Shown in pieces: positions 1 to 6,553 of a stretch of 6,553 nucleotides of DNA. Below the pieces are notes generated by a model. That model saw only the letters and a program-made list of their open reading frames with translations. It searched no databases and had not been told where the DNA came from. The stretch spans positions 1 through 6,553 of the forward strand of contig RFIY01000250.1 of assembly GCA_003695505.1 (NCBI GenBank), read 5' to 3'. The first letter of the stretch is position 1; every line of letters starts with the position of its first letter. Position numbers and translations under genes: made by a program. The DNA is from J088 sp003695505 [NCBI: Candidatus Dadabacteria bacterium] (GTDB lineage: Bacteria; J088).

Positions 1-1014
1 CTTGGTACATCGTTGCGTCCTTCGTTGACGATGTTGCTGGAGCAGGATCGGCGTCGTTACAGTGTCGAAGCCGCATTCCAGGATCTGCGCTATTACGGCG
101 TCCAGGACGCGGATGCGAAGCGTCAGTCCGACCAGAGCTGGCATCTCGACGGCAGCGGCCGGGAGGAACTGCTCAGCGGGACGACGTTGAAGGCGCGCGG
201 AACGTTCGTGCGCACGAGCGAGCCGATCTATGCCGATGTTACGCTCAGTCGCGACCGCATCGGCCGGGACAGCTCGCTGTTCGAGCCAGCGATCGAACAG
301 CAGGTGGGATCCGGGCTGATCGATGCCAGTTTGACCTGGAGCTACGCGCGCGACCGGTTCGAGGGGCTATATTCGGTGTACGACCGCGACAACCATACGC
401 TGACCGGTCGGGCGGCCGTTCGTCTGTTCACGACGCTCGAAACGTATGGTGTGGCATCGTGGAACCTCCTGCGTCGGCCGGTTACCGCGGCCGCGCTGCT
501 GGCGACCCGGCAGAACGCGACGGTGCTGCAGTTGGGGCTGGCCGGCGAACCCAGCCCGCTGTACAAGTTCAAGCTCGAGCTCGGGGCGCGTCTGCGCGTG
601 CGCGATTTTCGTGGGCGAGACCTTGCGATCCGCCCCGACCTGACGGCGGCGCTCGTCTGGTCGCCCGGCGCGTTGACGCGCATCCATCTGTTGTATCAGT
701 ACCGGATGCTGAATGGTGTCGTCACCGATGAGCTGGCAGTCAACAAAGGCCAGGTGGTTCTTGAGCGCCGACTCGGCCAGGACTGGAATCTGTCCGCGCG
801 CGGTGCGGCATGGCAGACGTCATTCCTGCCACGGATCCAGCTCGACCGCCAGGACATCAACGCCGAGGCCGGCGCAAAACTCGCCTGGGAGCCGCAGGCG
901 CTGGACATGCTGCGGCTTTCCCTTCGCTATGACTGGCAGGGGCGTTACGCGGATCCCGACACATTTGATTTTGCTGCTCACGACGTTCATCTTGAGTTTG
1001 CCGTGCGCTACTGA
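1..1014 (+). CDS. Outer-membrane beta-barrel protein, probable polysaccharide translocon subunit (5' end outside window)
   Basis: The reading frame is open from base 1, so the start and signal peptide lie upstream; 337 C-terminal residues are visible. The protein is made of repeated stretches of about 8-12 residues with alternating polar and hydrophobic/aromatic residues, separated by charged or Gly/Asp-rich turns. This is the pattern of antiparallel transmembrane beta-strands. The last strand (HDVHLEFAVRY) ends in an aromatic residue, as the BAM-recognised beta-signal of outer-membrane proteins does. No enzymatic motif is visible. Its 3' end overlaps the next gene, an OPX export protein, by 86 nt, so the two are probably made together. 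Beta-barrels encoded beside short OPX proteins (for example EpsX with EpsY in Myxococcus xanthus) are thought to supply the outer-membrane channel for polysaccharide; that role is inferred here. It could instead be an EpsL-like barrel of uncertain function. Confidence 0.8.
   Translation, partial: LGTSLRPSLTMLLEQDRRRYSVEAAFQDLRYYGVQDADAKRQSDQSWHLDGSGREELLSGTTLKARGTFVRTSEPIYADVTLSRDRIGRDSSLFEPAIEQQVGSGLIDASLTWSYARDRFEGLYSVYDRDNHTLTGRAAVRLFTTLETYGVASWNLLRRPVTAAALLATRQNATVLQLGLAGEPSPLYKFKLELGARLRVRDFRGRDLAIRPDLTAALVWSPGALTRIHLLYQYRMLNGVVTDELAVNKGQVVLERRLGQDWNLSARGAAWQTSFLPRIQLDRQDINAEAGAKLAWEPQALDMLRLSLRYDWQGRYADPDTFDFAAHDVHLEFAVRY
929..1014 (+). other. 86-nt dual-coding overlap between barrel gene and OPX gene
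   Basis: These bases are read in two frames on the same strand. The first frame gives the last strands and the beta-signal of the outer-membrane barrel; the +1 frame gives nearly all of the OPX signal peptide. The start of the downstream gene is inferred, so the overlap could shrink to about 50 nt if TTG 965 is used. Even then the hydrophobic core of the signal peptide stays inside the barrel gene. No Shine-Dalgarno-like sequence sits at the usual distance from ATG 929, which suits translation by coupling to the upstream gene. Confidence 0.75.
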
Positions 1015-1768
1015 AGCCGCTCCAGGTGGCTATGTCCTTGGCCCAGGTGATCGGCTGTCGATTCGTGTTTATCCAGATGATCACCTTGCTCCCGAACTGA
1101 CGGTGCGCACGGACGGCACGATCATGATGCCGTTGATTGGCGCGGTGCCCGCGTCGGGAGCAACGGTGCCGGGCCTGACCGCGACCATTCAGAAACAGCT
1201 TGAGGGGCGTTTCTATCGCGCCCCCAGCGTAGAAATCGACGTCGTGCGCTATGTCTCCCATCGAGCCTTCGTGCTCGGCAGCGTGCGTGAGCCGGGTGGC
1301 TATCCGCTGTATCAGGGGGATCGCGTGCTCGACCTGCTGCAACGCGCGGGCGGCATTTCCGGCGCCTCGATCGGTTTTGCCTATCTGTTTACGCCCCGTC
1401 CCGGTCAGGGGGCGCCGGAGGTGCAACAGATCTCATTGCGACGTGTATTCGAGGCTGCCGATCCGGCGCACAATCTGGCTGTTCCGAACGGGGCCACGAT
1501 CTATGTGTATGACCAGGCGCGCGTGTTTGTGATGGGCGCCGTCGAGCGCGCGGGTTCGTACGAGGTGTCTGAAGGCGGAACGCTGCTCCGAGTCATTGCA
1601 ACCGCCGGCGGATTCTCTGCACGGGCCAGCACCACGAAAATTCGCATTTATCGCGGCTCGCCTGTCAAGGTCGTCGAGGTGGATGCATCTGCGATCATCA
1701 AGAATTCAGGTGAGGATCCGGTCGTCATGCCTGGTGACCTGATCTATGTGCCTCAGAGGTTTTTCTGA
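929..1768 (+). CDS. Polysaccharide export protein, short OPX (Wza/GumB family)
   Basis: The product has 279 residues from ATG 929. A signal peptide covers residues 1-30: Arg4 and Arg8, a hydrophobic core LILLLTTFILSL, and a probable signal peptidase I site TEA|APG. A Poly_export (PES) domain at about 35-108 starts with the hallmark YVLGPGDRLSIRVY. Two SLBB-type segments follow, at about 112-162 (FVLGSVREPGGY) and 198-248 (VFVMGAVERAGSY, then a TAGGFS end). The protein stops at GDLIYVPQRFF, with no room for the C-terminal outer-membrane helix of E. coli Wza (379 residues). OPX proteins form the periplasmic ring and outer-membrane exit for polysaccharide. ATG 929 was chosen because it gives a complete signal peptide with positive n-region; no good ribosome-binding site precedes it, and TTG 965 or 971 would lose that region. 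Cys26 follows Pro, so a lipobox is unlikely. The stop overlaps the next start by one base (TGATG). Confidence 0.92.
   Translation: MTGRGVTRIPTHLILLLTTFILSLPCATEAAPGGYVLGPGDRLSIRVYPDDHLAPELTVRTDGTIMMPLIGAVPASGATVPGLTATIQKQLEGRFYRAPSVEIDVVRYVSHRAFVLGSVREPGGYPLYQGDRVLDLLQRAGGISGASIGFAYLFTPRPGQGAPEVQQISLRRVFEAADPAHNLAVPNGATIYVYDQARVFVMGAVERAGSYEVSEGGTLLRVIATAGGFSARASTTKIRIYRGSPVKVVEVDASAIIKNSGEDPVVMPGDLIYVPQRFF
1755..1759 (+). promoter_or_regulatory. Ribosome-binding site for the Wzc-like gene
   Basis: AGAGG lies 8 nt before ATG 1768, inside the last codons of the OPX gene. It supports ATG 1768 as the start rather than the in-frame ATG 1777 three codons later. Confidence 0.6.
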
Positions 1769-3894
1769 TGCGCGGTATGCAGGATCTGATGCGGCTCACT
1801 GCGGTGCGGCGCGTACTGGCGGCGGTGCGGCGCTATCGATTCGTTGGCCTGAGTTTCTTCATCTTCGTCATTTTGGGGACGCTGTTTTTCACGTTCAGTC
1901 AGGATGAGCTGTATCGGGCCACCTCGGTCGTAGAACTGCGCTGGAACCCGAAAACCGAAGTCTTTCCGTTTCGTGATGTCAGTACGCAGGAAACCTGGGG
2001 CGGCTACTGGTCCTACGACGAGTTTCGTAACACGCAGATCGAAGTGATCCGCTCCCGGCGTGTCCTGCAGCGCGTCGTCGATGTACTTGGCGATCCGTCG
2101 CTGACCCCCGCCCTGCTCGAAGCGCGCCTGACGGTCGAGCCGGTGCCCGACAGTCGGTTGATTCGTGTTTCCTACATGGATACGAGTCCGCAGCGTGCCG
2201 CGGATATCGCAAATACAGTCGTGCAGGCGTACATGGATGTAGGCGTCGAAAACAGAATCCGCTGGATTCAGCAGATTGTCGACTGGCTGCGCGATCGAAT
2301 CGACAATACGCAGGATGACATCGGCCGGGCGCAGAAGGATCTGTTCGAGTTCCAGAAAGAGATGGGTTCCATCAACCTCGACAAGGATCGCCAGCAAATC
2401 GAGGCCGAGATCGACGCATTGCATGCGCGTTACATCGATGCGCATACGCGCCGGATCCAGCTCGAAGGGCAGCTTCGCGAAATGAAGCGGCTCGCGGAAC
2501 AGGGCAACAGCGGCCTGCAGCAGCTTGCACATGCCCTTGCGGTCGAAGATCGGCAGGGCGCAGTCGCCACGATCCAGAAACGGTGGGTTGAACTTCAGGC
2601 TGAGCGAGCTGGCCTCAGTGCCGTTTACGGCGACGCACATCCGAAGATGCAGGCGCTCGACCGGCAGCTCAATGCACTTCGGAGCGAATTGCTCGAAGCC
2701 GCACGCAAGCGTATCGATGGCATCCGCGCCCAGATGGATATTGCCACGGCCGAAGAAGAAGAGTTGCTCAAGGCAATGGATGAGCTCGTGTCGGCCGCAC
2801 TGGATCGGAGCAAGATCTGGCAACGGTACCAGGAATTGTCAGACGAGGCCGTAAGCCGCCGGCAATTTTACGAGGTGCTGCTCGAACGATTCAAGGAAAT
2901 CGACATCACCCGAGACCTCAACCGGGAACAGGCTGTGCTGATCGAGTCCGCCGTGCCGCCGGCCGTTGCCGCCTGGCCCAATGTGCGGGTCAATCTTGCC
3001 GTCGGCCTCTTTCTCGCCCTGACGGGTGCGATCGGAATGGCGCTGTTGCTCAATCTGCTCCAGCAGGGCGTCCAGAACAGCGAGGATCTCGAGGCCGCCA
3101 TCGGGGTGCGTGCACTGGCCGAATTGCCGTATCTGCAGACCGACTCGATCGACTATCCACTCGAGAAACTGATGCTGCACGACCCTGACTCGCCGCTTGC
3201 GGAATCGATTCGGGTTGTGCGCAACCATATCCTGTTTGCGCCGCGCGGGCGCCGCATTCGCGCGATCTTGTTCACCGGGGCGCAACCGCTCGAAGGCAAG
3301 ACGACCACGGCGAACAACCTCGCGATTGCAACGGCGCAGGCCGGCCGGAGAGTGTTGCTGGTCGACGCCGACCTGCGCAAGGCCGCGACCTCGAAAGTCT
3401 GGAAGGCGCGAGGTCGAAGAGGCTTTGCGGATGTGCTGTCGGGCAATGCGCGTTGGCAGGACGTCGTTCAGCCCACGGAAGTCGCGAATCTTTCGGTGAT
3501 GGGAACGGGTGGTGATCCGTCGCACCCGCCAGAGCTGTTCCAGAAGGAGGCGCTGGAACGGGTGCTGCCGGTGCTTCAGCAGGAATGGGATATTGTGATT
3601 TTCGACGGCTCACCGCTGCTGCTGGTGGCGGATTCGATCGTTGTCTCGTCCGTGGTGGACGAGACGTTCATCGTGATGGAGGCAGGGCGTATCCACAAGC
3701 GCGAGGCGCGGGATCTCGTGGCCAGACTCGAGCGGATCGGACAGCCGACCTGGGAAATCATCCTCAACAAGGTCACGCTGCCCAGTGCATGGGGGTATGA
3801 TGGCTACGGCTATGGTTACAGTTACGGATACGGCTCGCGAGGTGAGTCCGAATTGCTTGTCGATCAGGGTGACGTAACCGTCGAAACCGTGTAG
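1768..3894 (+). CDS. wzc: Wzc-like polysaccharide co-polymerase with fused bacterial tyrosine kinase
   Basis: At 708 residues it is close to E. coli Wzc (720). An inner-membrane helix at about 25-43 starts the Wzz domain. The periplasmic part (about 45-405) is largely helical/coiled coil and contains a GNVR-like YGDAHPKM segment at 287-294. The proline-bearing stretch PPAVAAWPN (397-405) precedes the second membrane helix (about 408-428), as in PCP proteins. The cytoplasmic BY-kinase has the oligomerisation motif EX2RX2R (479-485, ESIRVVR), Walker A GAQPLEGKT (504-512), Walker A' VLLVDADLR (529-537) and Walker B DIVIFD (608-613). The tail carries six tyrosines (677-688). Such proteins set chain length and control export by cycles of ring assembly and tail autophosphorylation. 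A Wzb-type phosphatase would be expected but is not in the window. The residues after Walker B read GSP, where many relatives have TPP. The family assignment is secure; the polymer is unknown. Confidence 0.96.
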   Translation: MRGMQDLMRLTAVRRVLAAVRRYRFVGLSFFIFVILGTLFFTFSQDELYRATSVVELRWNPKTEVFPFRDVSTQETWGGYWSYDEFRNTQIEVIRSRRVLQRVVDVLGDPSLTPALLEARLTVEPVPDSRLIRVSYMDTSPQRAADIANTVVQAYMDVGVENRIRWIQQIVDWLRDRIDNTQDDIGRAQKDLFEFQKEMGSINLDKDRQQIEAEIDALHARYIDAHTRRIQLEGQLREMKRLAEQGNSGLQQLAHALAVEDRQGAVATIQKRWVELQAERAGLSAVYGDAHPKMQALDRQLNALRSELLEAARKRIDGIRAQMDIATAEEEELLKAMDELVSAALDRSKIWQRYQELSDEAVSRRQFYEVLLERFKEIDITRDLNREQAVLIESAVPPAVAAWPNVRVNLAVGLFLALTGAIGMALLLNLLQQGVQNSEDLEAAIGVRALAELPYLQTDSIDYPLEKLMLHDPDSPLAESIRVVRNHILFAPRGRRIRAILFTGAQPLEGKTTTANNLAIATAQAGRRVLLVDADLRKAATSKVWKARGRRGFADVLSGNARWQDVVQPTEVANLSVMGTGGDPSHPPELFQKEALERVLPVLQQEWDIVIFDGSPLLLVADSIVVSSVVDETFIVMEAGRIHKREARDLVARLERIGQPTWEIILNKVTLPSAWGYDGYGYGYSYGYGSRGESELLVDQGDVTVETV
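3796..3834 (+). repeat. Tyr-Gly repeat encoding the kinase phosphorylation tail
   Basis: This short low-complexity stretch encodes YDGYGYGYSYGYG, with tyrosines at residues 677, 680, 682, 684, 686 and 688 of the Wzc-like protein. The tandem TAY-GGN codons use mixed third bases (tac/tat; ggc/ggt/gga), so the repeat is kept at protein level rather than being a recent DNA expansion. In Wzc/CapB kinases the tyrosine cluster at this position is the autophosphorylation site; that function is inferred here from family and position. Confidence 0.85.
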
Positions 3895-3930: not shown

Positions 3931-5070
3931 ATGCGCGACGCGCCATTCGTACAATTTGTGATGGTTCTGGCAGCGGTCGGTATGGCCGGGTGTGCTGCAA
4001 GCACACCCGAAGTCGATCCATTCGCCCTGCTTGAGGCGCATGACGCCGTGGGTGCCGAGGCGGCGTTTCGCGAGCGTATCGAAGCAGACCCGTTCAACGG
4101 ACGCTGGAAGGACGGCCTCGGTGCGGCGCTGGCGGCGCAGGGCCGATACCAGGAGGGGTGCCCGTTGTTGACAGTACGCAGCCAGCCATTGTCGTCAGAC
4201 CAGTGCTGGCTACAGGCGATTCGGCAGGCGGCCGCCGCCGAACGCTGGAGTACCGTTGCGGGTTATGTCCGGCGTGCGCCGGTCGAGCAGTTTCCACCCG
4301 CCGCCCGGCGCGAAGTCTGGAGCGCAGCTTCGTCGGCAGGCCGGGCAACGGCCGACTGGGATTTGCTCTTGCGGGCCTATCCCGCGCTGATCGCCGATGA
4401 TCCCGACAACGCCGAGCTGCATTATCTGTATGGCAGAGCACTTGAGCGGCGAGACAAATTTCAGGAAGCGTTGCACGAATATGAGCTGGCAAGGGAGCTT
4501 GATCCCCGCAACGCCGATGTGGCCCGCTATATTCGACGCCTCGAAGCGCGCATGAAACAAAGCGGTGGAACGGCGGCTGCACGCATCGAACACCTTGGTG
4601 CCGTGTCAAGGCCGGCGACAACGGCGGCGATGGATCCTGTGCGCATGAGCGCCTGGACCCATGGCGACGTCGAGGCGGTCATCGAGATCGAAGATTTGCC
4701 AGAAGTTGAATCGGACGCCAGCATCGACACTGAAATGCTCGCGGTCGATATTCGGGTGATCAAATCTCACTGGCCTTCAGGCGTCAACCCACAACGCATT
4801 CTGGCAAAGATTTCGCGTGCGGCGATCGACCTGCCGTGCCCGGCCATGGGCGAGAAGGGGGAAGTCGAGGTTGTCGTCGGGCCGGACGGTATCGTTCGCA
4901 AGGTCAAGGCCACCGGTGTGTCCGACACGATTGCTGCGTGCCTGACGCGATCCATACGTGCATGGATTTTCGATGAAATGCGCGGCGGATACCTTCATTT
5001 CGCATTTCCGTTTCCTCAGATCGATGAATCGGATCTGTACGGCGACTTCTCGGGCGAACCAGAGCAATGA
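3931..5070 (+). CDS. TPR-containing outer-membrane lipoprotein with AgmX/PglI-like (TonB C-terminal-like) domain
   Basis: The product has 379 residues. A lipoprotein signal peptide ends in the lipobox MAGC with Cys21; Ala at +2 favours the outer membrane. Helical TPR-like segments follow, around 31-80 (AEAAFRERIEADPFN, then LGAALAAQGRYQEG) and, most clearly, 161-194 (AELHYLYGRALERRDKFQEA through ARELDPRNA). Residues 200-290 are a low-homology linker with an acidic patch. Residues about 303-363 look like an AgmX/PglI C-terminal domain: Cys303, then VEVVVGPDGIVRKVKATG, IAACLTRSIRAWIF with Cys337, and a final GGYLHFAFPF. Cys303 and Cys337 could form a disulfide. It sits 36 nt after the kinase gene and overlaps the next glycosyltransferase by 4 nt, so a role in polymer assembly or export is likely, but I do not know a named gene with this architecture. 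TPR lipoproteins elsewhere scaffold periplasmic/outer-membrane complexes; that is only an analogy. Confidence 0.8.
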   Translation: MRDAPFVQFVMVLAAVGMAGCAASTPEVDPFALLEAHDAVGAEAAFRERIEADPFNGRWKDGLGAALAAQGRYQEGCPLLTVRSQPLSSDQCWLQAIRQAAAAERWSTVAGYVRRAPVEQFPPAARREVWSAASSAGRATADWDLLLRAYPALIADDPDNAELHYLYGRALERRDKFQEALHEYELARELDPRNADVARYIRRLEARMKQSGGTAAARIEHLGAVSRPATTAAMDPVRMSAWTHGDVEAVIEIEDLPEVESDASIDTEMLAVDIRVIKSHWPSGVNPQRILAKISRAAIDLPCPAMGEKGEVEVVVGPDGIVRKVKATGVSDTIAACLTRSIRAWIFDEMRGGYLHFAFPFPQIDESDLYGDFSGEPEQ

Positions 5071-5903
5071 GACAGGAGCAACCGGCGCCGGATGTCGGGC
5101 GACGGGAAGCAGCGGATCACGGCACAGCGCAGGCAGGCTGTACGCGGTTACCCGTAACGGCGGCGATACTGGCACATAATGAGGCCGATCGCCTGCCTGC
5201 GACCCTCCAGGCGCTGAACCAACATGTCGAGCGCATCATCGTGCTGGATTCCGACAGCGACGATGGGACCGCCGAAGTCGCAATGGCGCTTGGCGCGGAA
5301 GTCCACAATCATCGCTGGGAGGGATATGTGGCGGCGCGCCGTCGGTTGCTGGAACTGGTCGATGCGCCATGGTGCCTGATGGTCGATGCGGACGAGGTTG
5401 TACCTCCGGCATTCTGGGATGCGCTGGCACGCACCGGCTTTCCCGATACAGAAGCCAGCGCATACGCCGTCCGCCGTCAGACGATCTACCTTGGAAAACG
5501 ACTGCGCTACGCCTGGCAGCCCGACTGGAAGACCGTGCTCGTGCGCACTGAGCGTGCGCGCATCGAAGGCGGCGCCGTGCACGAGTATCTGACGACGCCG
5601 GATCCGGTGGTGCGACTTCCGGTCGCAATCGACCACTATTCCTACCGTGGGCTGGGGGATCATCTCCGAAAAATGATCGCCTATGCGCGGCTGGGTGCCG
5701 CGCAGCTCGAACAGGAGGGGCGGCGGTGCCACTGGTGGGACCTGACGCTTCGTCCGGCGTGGCATGTCGTTCGGCATTTGCTTGTCAAACAGGCCTGGCG
5801 CGACGGCCTGCCCGGCTGGATCGCGGCAACGAGTTCCGGCGTCGCGGTCTGGATGCGCTACGCGTTCCTGCTGGAACGGCGCCTGGAGCTGCGGAAGGGC
5901 TGA
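5067..5903 (+). CDS. Family 2 glycosyltransferase, WaaE/KdtX-like
   Basis: The product has 278 residues. After about 29 non-conserved residues the GT-A fold begins: VTAAILAHNEADRL (30-43), IIVLDSDSDDGT (57-68) and the metal/sugar-nucleotide motif VDADE (106-110). The WaaE-type C-terminal features follow: YLGKRLRYAWQPDWKTVLVR, VHEYL, HYSYRGLGDHLRKMIAYARLGAAQL and WRDGLPGWIA. Such enzymes add a sugar from a nucleotide donor to a lipid-linked glycan at the inner face of the inner membrane; the basic/hydrophobic C-terminus could hold it there. Donor and linkage cannot be read from the sequence. ATG 5067 overlaps the previous stop (ATGA) and is the only plausible start before the fold; no strong ribosome-binding site precedes it, suggesting coupling. 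Many relatives have QKN after the first motif region; here the matching stretch reads EGYVAARRR. Confidence 0.93.
   Translation: MRQEQPAPDVGRREAADHGTAQAGCTRLPVTAAILAHNEADRLPATLQALNQHVERIIVLDSDSDDGTAEVAMALGAEVHNHRWEGYVAARRRLLELVDAPWCLMVDADEVVPPAFWDALARTGFPDTEASAYAVRRQTIYLGKRLRYAWQPDWKTVLVRTERARIEGGAVHEYLTTPDPVVRLPVAIDHYSYRGLGDHLRKMIAYARLGAAQLEQEGRRCHWWDLTLRPAWHVVRHLLVKQAWRDGLPGWIAATSSGVAVWMRYAFLLERRLELRKG
5893..5899 (+). promoter_or_regulatory. Ribosome-binding site deciding the GTG start of the GT4 gene
   Basis: GGAAGGG lies 8 nt before GTG 5908, within the last codons of the preceding glycosyltransferase. It is the strongest Shine-Dalgarno-like match in the window. No ATG in this frame follows near the conserved N-terminus, so it fixes the non-ATG start. 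Confidence 0.75.
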
Positions 5904-5907
5904 GCGC

Positions 5908-6553
5908 GTGATTGTTGCGTATGACGGGATCCGTGCCGCCCTGAACCCATCGGGGCTCGGCAACTACAGCCGATTTATACTCGACGCCGTCGAGCGACAT
6001 CTGCCTGCCATCGAACCGCATGTCTATCTGCCGCTCAGCGACGGCAGTGGGCTGTATCAGCCGCAGGGTCGCGCCAGACTGCAGCACCCGCATCGTTGGC
6101 CCGGCGGCCTGCTGGCGCGAACGCTATGGCGGCGAAGGCTGGCAAGGCGCGTGGCGGCCGACGGCGCAGCCGTCTTTCATGGATTGTCGAATGAACTTCC
6201 GGTTCGCCTGCATTCGCACGGCCTGCGGGGCGTCGTTACGATCCACGACCTGATCTATCTCCGCTATCCGCAGTATTTTTCGGCGATCGACCGTCGTCTG
6301 TACGACCGACGTTACCGCAGGTCGGTTGCCGAAGCTGATCGAATCATTGCCGTCAGTCAGCAGACAGCCGATGACCTGATGCGGTATTACGGCGCTCCCG
6401 CCGGTCGAATCGATGTCGTTGGGCAGGGGTGTGCCCCATTTTTTTATGAGATCGAGCGCCGTCCGGCACCGCAACCGCTGGTGCTGTATGTCGGCGCGTT
6501 CGATCCGCGCAAGAACATCGCGTTGATCGTCGAGGCGGCCGCGCGGTTACAGC
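5908..6553 (+). CDS. GT4-type glycosyltransferase, N-terminal part (3' end outside window)
   Basis: A GTG start is preceded by a good ribosome-binding site and lies 4 nt after the previous stop. The frame stays open for 215 codons to the window edge. Conserved GT-B/GT4 features appear in order: IVAYDGIRAALNPSGLGNYS near the N-terminus (the glycine-rich acceptor-side loop), TIHDLIYLRYPQYF with His113-Asp114, ADRIIAVSQQTADDL at about 142-156, and LYVGAFDPRKN at 193-203, which opens the nucleotide-sugar-binding domain. The catalytic EX7E region would come later and is not seen. Relatives are mannosyl-, glucosyl- or rhamnosyltransferases of O-antigen and exopolysaccharide pathways; the specificity cannot be told. 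It probably adds a sugar to the same repeat unit as the upstream GT2 enzyme. The visible part is about half to 60% of the usual 350-400 residues. Confidence 0.93.
   Translation, partial: MIVAYDGIRAALNPSGLGNYSRFILDAVERHLPAIEPHVYLPLSDGSGLYQPQGRARLQHPHRWPGGLLARTLWRRRLARRVAADGAAVFHGLSNELPVRLHSHGLRGVVTIHDLIYLRYPQYFSAIDRRLYDRRYRRSVAEADRIIAVSQQTADDLMRYYGAPAGRIDVVGQGCAPFFYEIERRPAPQPLVLYVGAFDPRKNIALIVEAAARLQ

Follow-up and report, generated by a model that had tools for sequence, protein, structure and literature searches.

A predicted TPR lipoprotein with a TonB/TolA-like C-terminal domain encoded in a short-OPX/beta-barrel/Wzc exporter operon

Described systems and the exporter operon

It is unsettled by what means Wzc/OPX exporters drive long polymers across the outer membrane, and whether proton-driven envelope machines contribute to this step. 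TPR scaffold lipoproteins of the AlgK type belong to synthase-dependent exporters. The C-terminal domains (CTDs) of TonB and TolA bind partners on the outer-membrane side, and domain III of E. coli TolA carries a disulfide. The available text of PMC9601211 and PMC9603273 describes short OPX proteins that pair with barrels, and that of PMC9601211 also describes a TPR protein paired with an outer-membrane barrel in synthase-dependent exporters. The words TonB, ExbB and TolQ are absent from the main text of the former paper, and TonB and AgmX from that of the latter. A related C-terminal domain, referred to here as the tail, is found in the AgmX/PglI proteins of Myxococcus, where pglI corresponds to gltG, agmX to gltJ and aglT to gltE (PMC3169522, in its available part). 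The same part calls the function of the Agl-Glt core complex of non-gliding bacteria unknown. The available part of PMC3858216 shows that the Exo polymer, once exported, is moved by Agl-Nfs in Myxococcus, and states that Agl-Glt/Nfs takes no part in sugar synthesis or export; TonB-like GltG has been proposed to contact the outer membrane cyclically (available part of PMC5349195). Operons joining GltG/TolQ with OPX/Wzc genes were unreported in the titles and abstract openings listed for papers on Glt/Tol proteins and OPX/Wzc loci, a sample largely restricted to literature outside subscription journals.

The window analysed here is the entire 6553-base contig C322 from an assembly of 2.83 Mb (84.5% complete), so both window ends are contig ends. 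The rpoB of this genome shares about 60% identity with that of named alphaproteobacteria, 56% with that of Escherichia and, over its length, at most 64% with those of the best-scoring other genomes. Its genes are predicted to encode a short-OPX/beta-barrel/Wzc exporter together with glycosyltransferases (Table 1), and the neighbouring kinase, translocon and glycosyltransferase genes named in the preliminary description were recovered with Pfam, NCBIfam and hhalign. The start of the OPX gene was placed at its ATG because of the signal-peptide-like N-terminus that follows; it would lie within the end of the barrel gene, with an overlap of about 86 bases (window 929-1014). From this start, the OPX protein comprises 279 aa with Poly_export and SLBB as its only Pfam domains and no Wza_C match. 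It thus falls within the class of composite-exporter OPX proteins (up to 280 aa, without the outer-membrane C-terminal helix domain), the size limit being that in the available part of PMC9601211. The product of the barrel-like gene, at the place where composite exporters have an 18-stranded beta-barrel, gave no match in the Pfam scan. The locus resembles composite OPX/beta-barrel exporters (EpsY/EpsX, ExoA/ExoB and WzaB/WzpB; VpsN/VpsM) in its short OPX adjoining a barrel-like gene and in its Wzc, and differs from them in the TPR lipoprotein with a TonB-like tail, a component not mentioned in the available text of PMC9601211 and PMC9603273. With AlgK-type systems, it shares the combination of a TPR-type lipoprotein and an outer-membrane barrel in one exporter, whereas its Wzc/OPX pathway and additional TonB-like domain set it apart, and no Sel1 match was listed for the lipoprotein in the Pfam scan.

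The lipoprotein gene starts 36 bases past wzc, with AGGGG 5 bases upstream of its ATG, and its stop overlaps the ATG of the following glycosyltransferase gene by 4 bases. Its GC content by codon position (0.69/0.49/0.66) lies within the range of the neighbouring genes.

Table 1. Positions of the predicted genes and protein features in the window.
Feature	Position	Strand	Basis or remark
Outer-membrane beta-barrel-like OPX partner	1..1014	+	5' end lost at contig end; C-terminal Tyr
Short OPX, Poly_export plus SLBB, 279 aa from ATG at 929	929..1768	+	start inferred
Wzc-like co-polymerase, BY-kinase domain, Tyr-rich tail	1768..3894	+	Pfam, NCBIfam
TPR lipoprotein with TonB/TolA-CTD-like C-terminal domain, 379 aa	3931..5070	+	ORF, domain matches, model
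Signal peptide and lipobox MVLAAVGMAGC	3931..3993	+	pattern match, hydropathy; Cys21 predicted lipidated
TPR-like helices, residues 58-210	4102..4560	+	Pfam, model, Foldseek
Low-confidence linker, residues 211-285, acidic at about 245-267	4561..4785	+	pLDDT, residue counts
AgmX/PglI-like (TonB/TolA C-terminal-like) domain, residues 287-361	4789..5013	+	NCBIfam, tail HMM, model
Cys303	4837-4839	+	C-terminal domain
Cys337	4939-4941	+	C-terminal domain
Family 2 glycosyltransferase	5067..5903	+	Pfam; start overlaps lipoprotein stop
Family 4-type glycosyltransferase	5908..6553	+	Pfam; cut at contig end; GTG start inferred

Domain structure of the lipoprotein

The elements read from the sequence in the preliminary description (lipobox, TPR-like helices, acidic linker and a C-terminal domain with the GPDG, CLTRSIRAWIF and FPF motifs and two cysteines) were all recovered; the cysteines are Cys303 and Cys337. 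The prokaryotic lipobox pattern matched once, ending at Cys21 after the hydrophobic stretch, which is the sole 19-residue window with a mean hydropathy of at least 1.6 (next highest mean, 0.81). The residues following the cysteine are Ala-Ala, not Asp; by the lipoprotein sorting rule, Ala-Ala at +2/+3 and the lack of Asp at +2 direct a protein to the outer membrane, which points to a predicted outer-membrane location. In Pfam, the TPR similarity falls mainly on residues 141-201, where TPR_2 matched residues 161-194 (E = 2.2e-5) with a score under the gathering cut-off. In the single-sequence structure model, nine helices span residues 58-210 (block pLDDT mostly 62-90), and its best solved matches were designed and natural TPR proteins (Foldseek, E = 7.7e-5; 19 chains with E ≤ 0.001). 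The TPR region is therefore regarded as real but weak. The linker had a pLDDT below 50 over residues 212-288 in this model and contains 9 acidic and 0 basic residues in its acidic part (residues 245-267).

The assignment of the C-terminal domain to the AgmX/PglI type was corroborated at the sequence level and, with the caveats given below, by its predicted fold. The AgmX/PglI tail model NF033768 matched the whole lipoprotein with 21.4 bits (E = 2.0e-4) and its last 117 aa with 23.7 bits (E = 3.9e-5); as both scores fall short of the cut-off of 40, the domain is classed as a divergent AgmX/PglI relative, not as a certified member. Among 18,950 NCBIfam models, NF033768 was the only one listed at E ≤ 10 for these 117 aa, given that HMMER filters discard most weak matches, and no Pfam match was listed for them. 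A tail HMM built from 30 loci (L053-L082) assigned 21.6 bits to the C-terminal domain, a score reached by none of 20,000 shuffled versions (14,782 reported by hmmsearch; best score, 11.1 bits). With an E-value of 1.9e-4 against this HMM, the tail of the window lies outside the limit of 1e-4 used for the six-frame locus set. When the 110 residues of the domain were used as a single query, matches with E ≤ 0.01 were obtained in 94 of 377 genomes, all from one large phylum (best E = 3.8e-7), and the proteins at the 20 best hits matched the tail HMM without exception (20/20).

Modelled from the single sequence, the domain adopted a helix-strand-strand-helix arrangement with low confidence. With five tails from other loci (L199-L203) included in the alignment, the mean pLDDT was 75 and the order was strand-helix-strand-strand-helix-strand. 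The first 11 Foldseek matches and the first 17 VIA-align matches to the C-terminal model were all TonB, TolA or FusB C-terminal domains. In the structural check put forward in the preliminary description, the model thus had the alpha-beta-beta-alpha-beta order and TonB/TolA top matches, with modest scores: the best Foldseek E-value was 0.028, with none at or below 0.001, and the best VIA-align Z-score was 7.1, in a range (below 8) that, according to the program's warning, may reflect merely a common arrangement. Since the confident model leans on the five-tail family alignment, which is able to impose a fold, a TonB/TolA-like alpha-beta-beta-alpha-beta fold is likely, not proven.

The domain shares with the AgmX/PglI proteins (GltG/PglI and GltJ/AgmX) the tail sequence, the predicted order of elements and the positions of GxV, FPF and the second cysteine, to which Cys337 aligns. 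Cys303 is shifted by a deletion of about 10 residues around the usual first cysteine, a segment that the window tail lacks in addition to scoring below the cut-off; the cysteine pair occurs in the majority, though not in every one, of the 30 aligned tails. The family proteins differ further in carrying FHA, GYF or zinc-ribbon domains in a minority of cases and an inner-membrane-type helix in those inspected by eye. TonB and TolA CTDs were the top-ranked solved structures for the modelled domain, yet the window protein has a lipoprotein signal in place of the inner-membrane helix of these transducers. Identification as a TonB-type transducer was rejected on the basis of the lipobox cysteine and the lack of a second hydrophobic 19-residue window; without an inner-membrane anchor, the lipoprotein itself would not be an energy transducer of the TonB layout. 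GltE/AglT of the Agl-Glt machine (NF033758) is likewise a TPR lipoprotein, but the N-terminal part of the window protein matched this model at E = 0.021 across about 41 residues only. With 11.6-13.8 bits against a cut-off of 225, an identity with GltE was also rejected; a gene on contig C173 of the same genome matches better (93 bits).

Tail-domain proteins at other loci and in this genome

Tails of the NF033768 type are widespread, with matches at E ≤ 0.001 in 174 of 386 genomes (80 above the cut-off). A Pfam scan at E ≤ 0.001 covered 62 of the 63 distinct tail proteins collected (one 84-residue fragment was excluded). TonB_C was found in 37, FHA in 8, GYF in 3 and TPR in a single case, the window lipoprotein, in a set in which at least 7 of the 62 proteins are cut at the N-terminus by the edge of the sequence and which, being mostly high-scoring, under-samples divergent tails like that of the window. 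The lipobox pattern was present in 3 of the 63. A 208-aa protein (L251:7548-8171, also listed as L231) combines this pattern with a tail domain but gave no match to TPR, so the window is not the only place where a predicted lipoprotein bears a tail.

For the conservation of the TPR-plus-tail architecture beside wzc, proposed as a check in the preliminary description, no second case turned up in the genomes, contigs and tail proteins searched. A search for full-length relatives returned 13 pattern stretches in genomic contigs and 2 in viral contigs, 0 of them confirmed, with a single-protein pattern that reaches close relatives only; plasmids yielded none. Among 58 other genomes, 17 matched the lipoprotein at E ≤ 0.001, all with alignments that end by residue 269. 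The two genomes of the phylum of G044, the genome whose Wzc is closest to that of the window (28%; two candidates scored per genome), contained no relative, and the G044 locus has no such lipoprotein gene directly after wzc. The order- and class-level searches covered only the genome of the window.

Tail domains recurred at exporter loci in another form. In a survey of 386 genomes, with two candidates scored per genome, 64 (including that of the window) had a Wzc match at E ≤ 1e-45. The 68 listed matches outside this genome were covered by 67 regions, many of them shortened by contig ends, and the tail HMM matched 8 of the 67 at E ≤ 1e-4. In 7 of these 8, the tail gene lay upstream of OPX and Wzc on the same strand, in the order GltG-like, small secreted protein, barrel-like protein, OPX, Wzc; the eighth was a fragment at the region edge. 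The seven loci span five families (three loci from one genus) and contain TolQ-like genes in six cases (the L120 contig breaks off before this point) and ExbD-like genes likewise in six (none found in L119). Among 20 regions picked by likeness to the window tail, OPX followed in the same block in three (L245, L250 and L253), with Wzc detected in one; L245 and L250 gave TolQ and ExbD hits, and L253 gave neither; the remaining 17 had no OPX in reach. Altogether, as raw counts, ten loci from eight families (L119, L120, L121, L122, L123, L124, L125, L245, L250 and L253) have a GltG-like gene upstream of barrel-OPX, with TolQ-like and ExbD-like genes upstream in 8 of 10 each and Wzc present in 8 of 10, as detected with HMMs partly built from the linked loci themselves. 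The suspicion voiced in the preliminary description that an AgmX/PglI-like domain can accompany polysaccharide export was thus supported by the GltG-like proteins upstream of OPX.

GltG (NF033760) was the best NCBIfam match for all eight scanned tail proteins of the ten loci (E = 2.7e-31 to 1.7e-56), with scores far under the 650-bit cut-off throughout; it likewise came first for two tail proteins that show no linkage to OPX within the available stretch (L198 and L200). Nine further tail regions (L190-L198) contained no OPX or Wzc, a count that is not an unbiased rate because they were hand-picked after the linked ones had been taken. Three TPR lipoproteins encoded upstream in linked loci had no tail match. 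GltE was the best match for that of L119 (E = 6.8e-36) and ranked behind other TPR models for the other two (E = 2.2e-30 and 4e-17), all below the cut-off. All ten loci carry, between the GltG-like and barrel-like genes, a small secreted, helical-looking protein of about 180-220 aa, which is weakly conserved (eight aligned, including L119:7899-8429 and L122:7257-7928). A tandem pair of tail-domain proteins follows TolQ-ExbD-ExbD in another region (L193:7842-10841).

In hhalign comparisons, the barrel-like product of the window showed weak homology to eight barrel-like proteins of motor-linked loci (probability 95.4, E = 2e-8) and matched five barrels from loci without a detected tail nearly as well (E = 4.6e-7). 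A barrel peculiar to motor-linked loci was therefore rejected, and since the barrel resembles both groups, it gives no argument for linkage.

In the genome of the window, the tail model matches seven times at E ≤ 0.1, twice above the cut-off, and four tail regions of this genome contain no OPX or Wzc. Contig C72 carries in a row a TolQ-like, two ExbD-like and a GltG-like gene, with no OPX or Wzc match on the contig; the first of the ExbD-like genes had no NCBIfam match at 0.01. Among 15 proteins compared, the closest to the C72 GltG-like protein was the exporter-linked one of G044 (40% over 315 aa), followed by an unlinked protein of G167. The TolQ tree did not place C72 TolQ with exporter-linked TolQs (long branch, open forks), and its three closest BLAST matches came from loci without a detected exporter. 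On contig C173, a GltE-like gene (93 bits, cut-off 225) is accompanied by two large TPR genes; the GltE call is weak because matches to this model below the cut-off also occur in 12 of 14 control genomes. A GltD identity for the C173 genes was dropped, as no model matched. Parts of an Agl-Glt-like core thus seem to be present in this genome, off the exporter contig as assembled. Two further tail proteins were observed: a 158-aa protein in which, in reversal of the usual order, the tail lies close to the N-terminus and is followed by a hydrophobic stretch (L135:8425-8901, contig C273), and a divergent one (22.6 bits; L137:6884-7543, contig C377) near a gene that we take to encode a MoxR-type ATPase.

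Possible roles of the lipoprotein

As the most probable of the readings considered, though with somewhat less than an even chance, the lipoprotein may serve as a periplasmic adaptor of the exporter held at the outer membrane, its location, partners and export role being deduced. The lipid anchor would hold it in the outer membrane, facing the periplasm, and the TPR array and the TolA/TonB-CTD-like domain would provide two putative protein-binding faces. These faces could organise the short-OPX/beta-barrel exporter encoded in the same operon and help to connect the outer-membrane pore with the Wzc side while polymer is exported. Such an adaptor is favoured by the position of the gene just past wzc with its stop overlapping the glycosyltransferase start, by the lipobox without Asp at +2, and by the top structural matches to TonB/TolA CTDs, domains that bind partners on the outer-membrane side. 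It is further favoured by the short OPX and adjacent barrel-like gene, an arrangement typical of composite translocons, and by the pairing of TPR proteins with barrels in synthase-dependent exporters (both in the available part of PMC9601211). It is weakened by the lack of a relative with the same architecture, so that conservation beside wzc cannot be shown, by the G044 locus without such a gene after wzc, and by the modest Foldseek and Z-scores, the family-tail alignment used in the model and the TPR scores below gathering cut-offs.

Contact with a motor offers a different, rather unlikely explanation, in which a TolQ/ExbD/GltG-like complex of this genome would contact the exporter through the lipoprotein, whose tail would pair or compete with the GltG tail; the lipoprotein would then be the part at the outer membrane of a machine that uses protons to export or move polymer. 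The ten loci from eight families in which a GltG-like gene precedes barrel-OPX, eight of them with TolQ-like and eight with ExbD-like genes, argue for this possibility, as do the TolQ-ExbD-ExbD-GltG-like genes on C72 and, weakly, the GltE-like and large TPR genes on C173. However, the motor-like and exporter genes of this genome lie on separate contigs, C72 being devoid of an OPX or Wzc match, the matches of the GltE model in 12 of 14 controls weaken the case of C173, and a best match to GltG is not confined to exporter loci (L198 and L200). The Myxococcus precedent cuts both ways, since the available part of PMC3858216 has Agl-Nfs moving the Exo polymer and also declares Agl-Glt/Nfs uninvolved in sugar synthesis or export.

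We consider it similarly improbable that the protein is a general periplasmic TPR lipoprotein, acting for example in outer-membrane or cell-wall upkeep, whose place in the operon is due to chance gene order. The generic TPR matches, the wide distribution of the tail domain (174 of 386 genomes at E ≤ 0.001) and the 17 of 20 tail-similarity regions without a nearby OPX would fit this explanation, but the gene sits inside the operon, overlapping the next gene by 4 bases, and the tail domain recurs beside exporters. A regulator of the Wzc kinase cycle in place of a structural adaptor is very improbable: the gene directly follows wzc, but the lipobox would keep the protein out of the cytoplasm, where the kinase domain lies, and nothing specific ties it to the periplasmic domain of Wzc.

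The link between the exporter and envelope-spanning machinery suggested in the preliminary description is plausible as a candidate role. A bolder proposal, which we regard as unlikely, is that of a widespread exporter class joined to a proton-driven Tol/Agl-type motor (TolQ-ExbD-ExbD-GltG plus barrel-OPX-Wzc), this being the ancestral job of the Agl-Glt core, with the window lipoprotein as a divergent outer-membrane receptor or clutch. What the Agl-Glt core complex does in non-gliders might be explained by the recurring block.

The window protein is a variant architecture, as the tail type, TPR lipoproteins and composite OPX/barrel exporters are already known, and it may represent a second way to put a TonB-like domain at an exporter. 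Its tail resembles domains which, in iron uptake and gliding, exert a pull on the outer membrane, and this hints that some exporters may join proton-driven machinery. The occurrence of GltG/TolQ/ExbD signature proteins in one block with barrel-OPX, mostly with Wzc, in eight families suggests for the Agl-Glt core complex a concrete role, open to testing, in exporting polymer or transporting it at the surface, and the recurring GltG-barrel-OPX-Wzc block makes contact with a proton-driven GltG-type machine a question worth testing.
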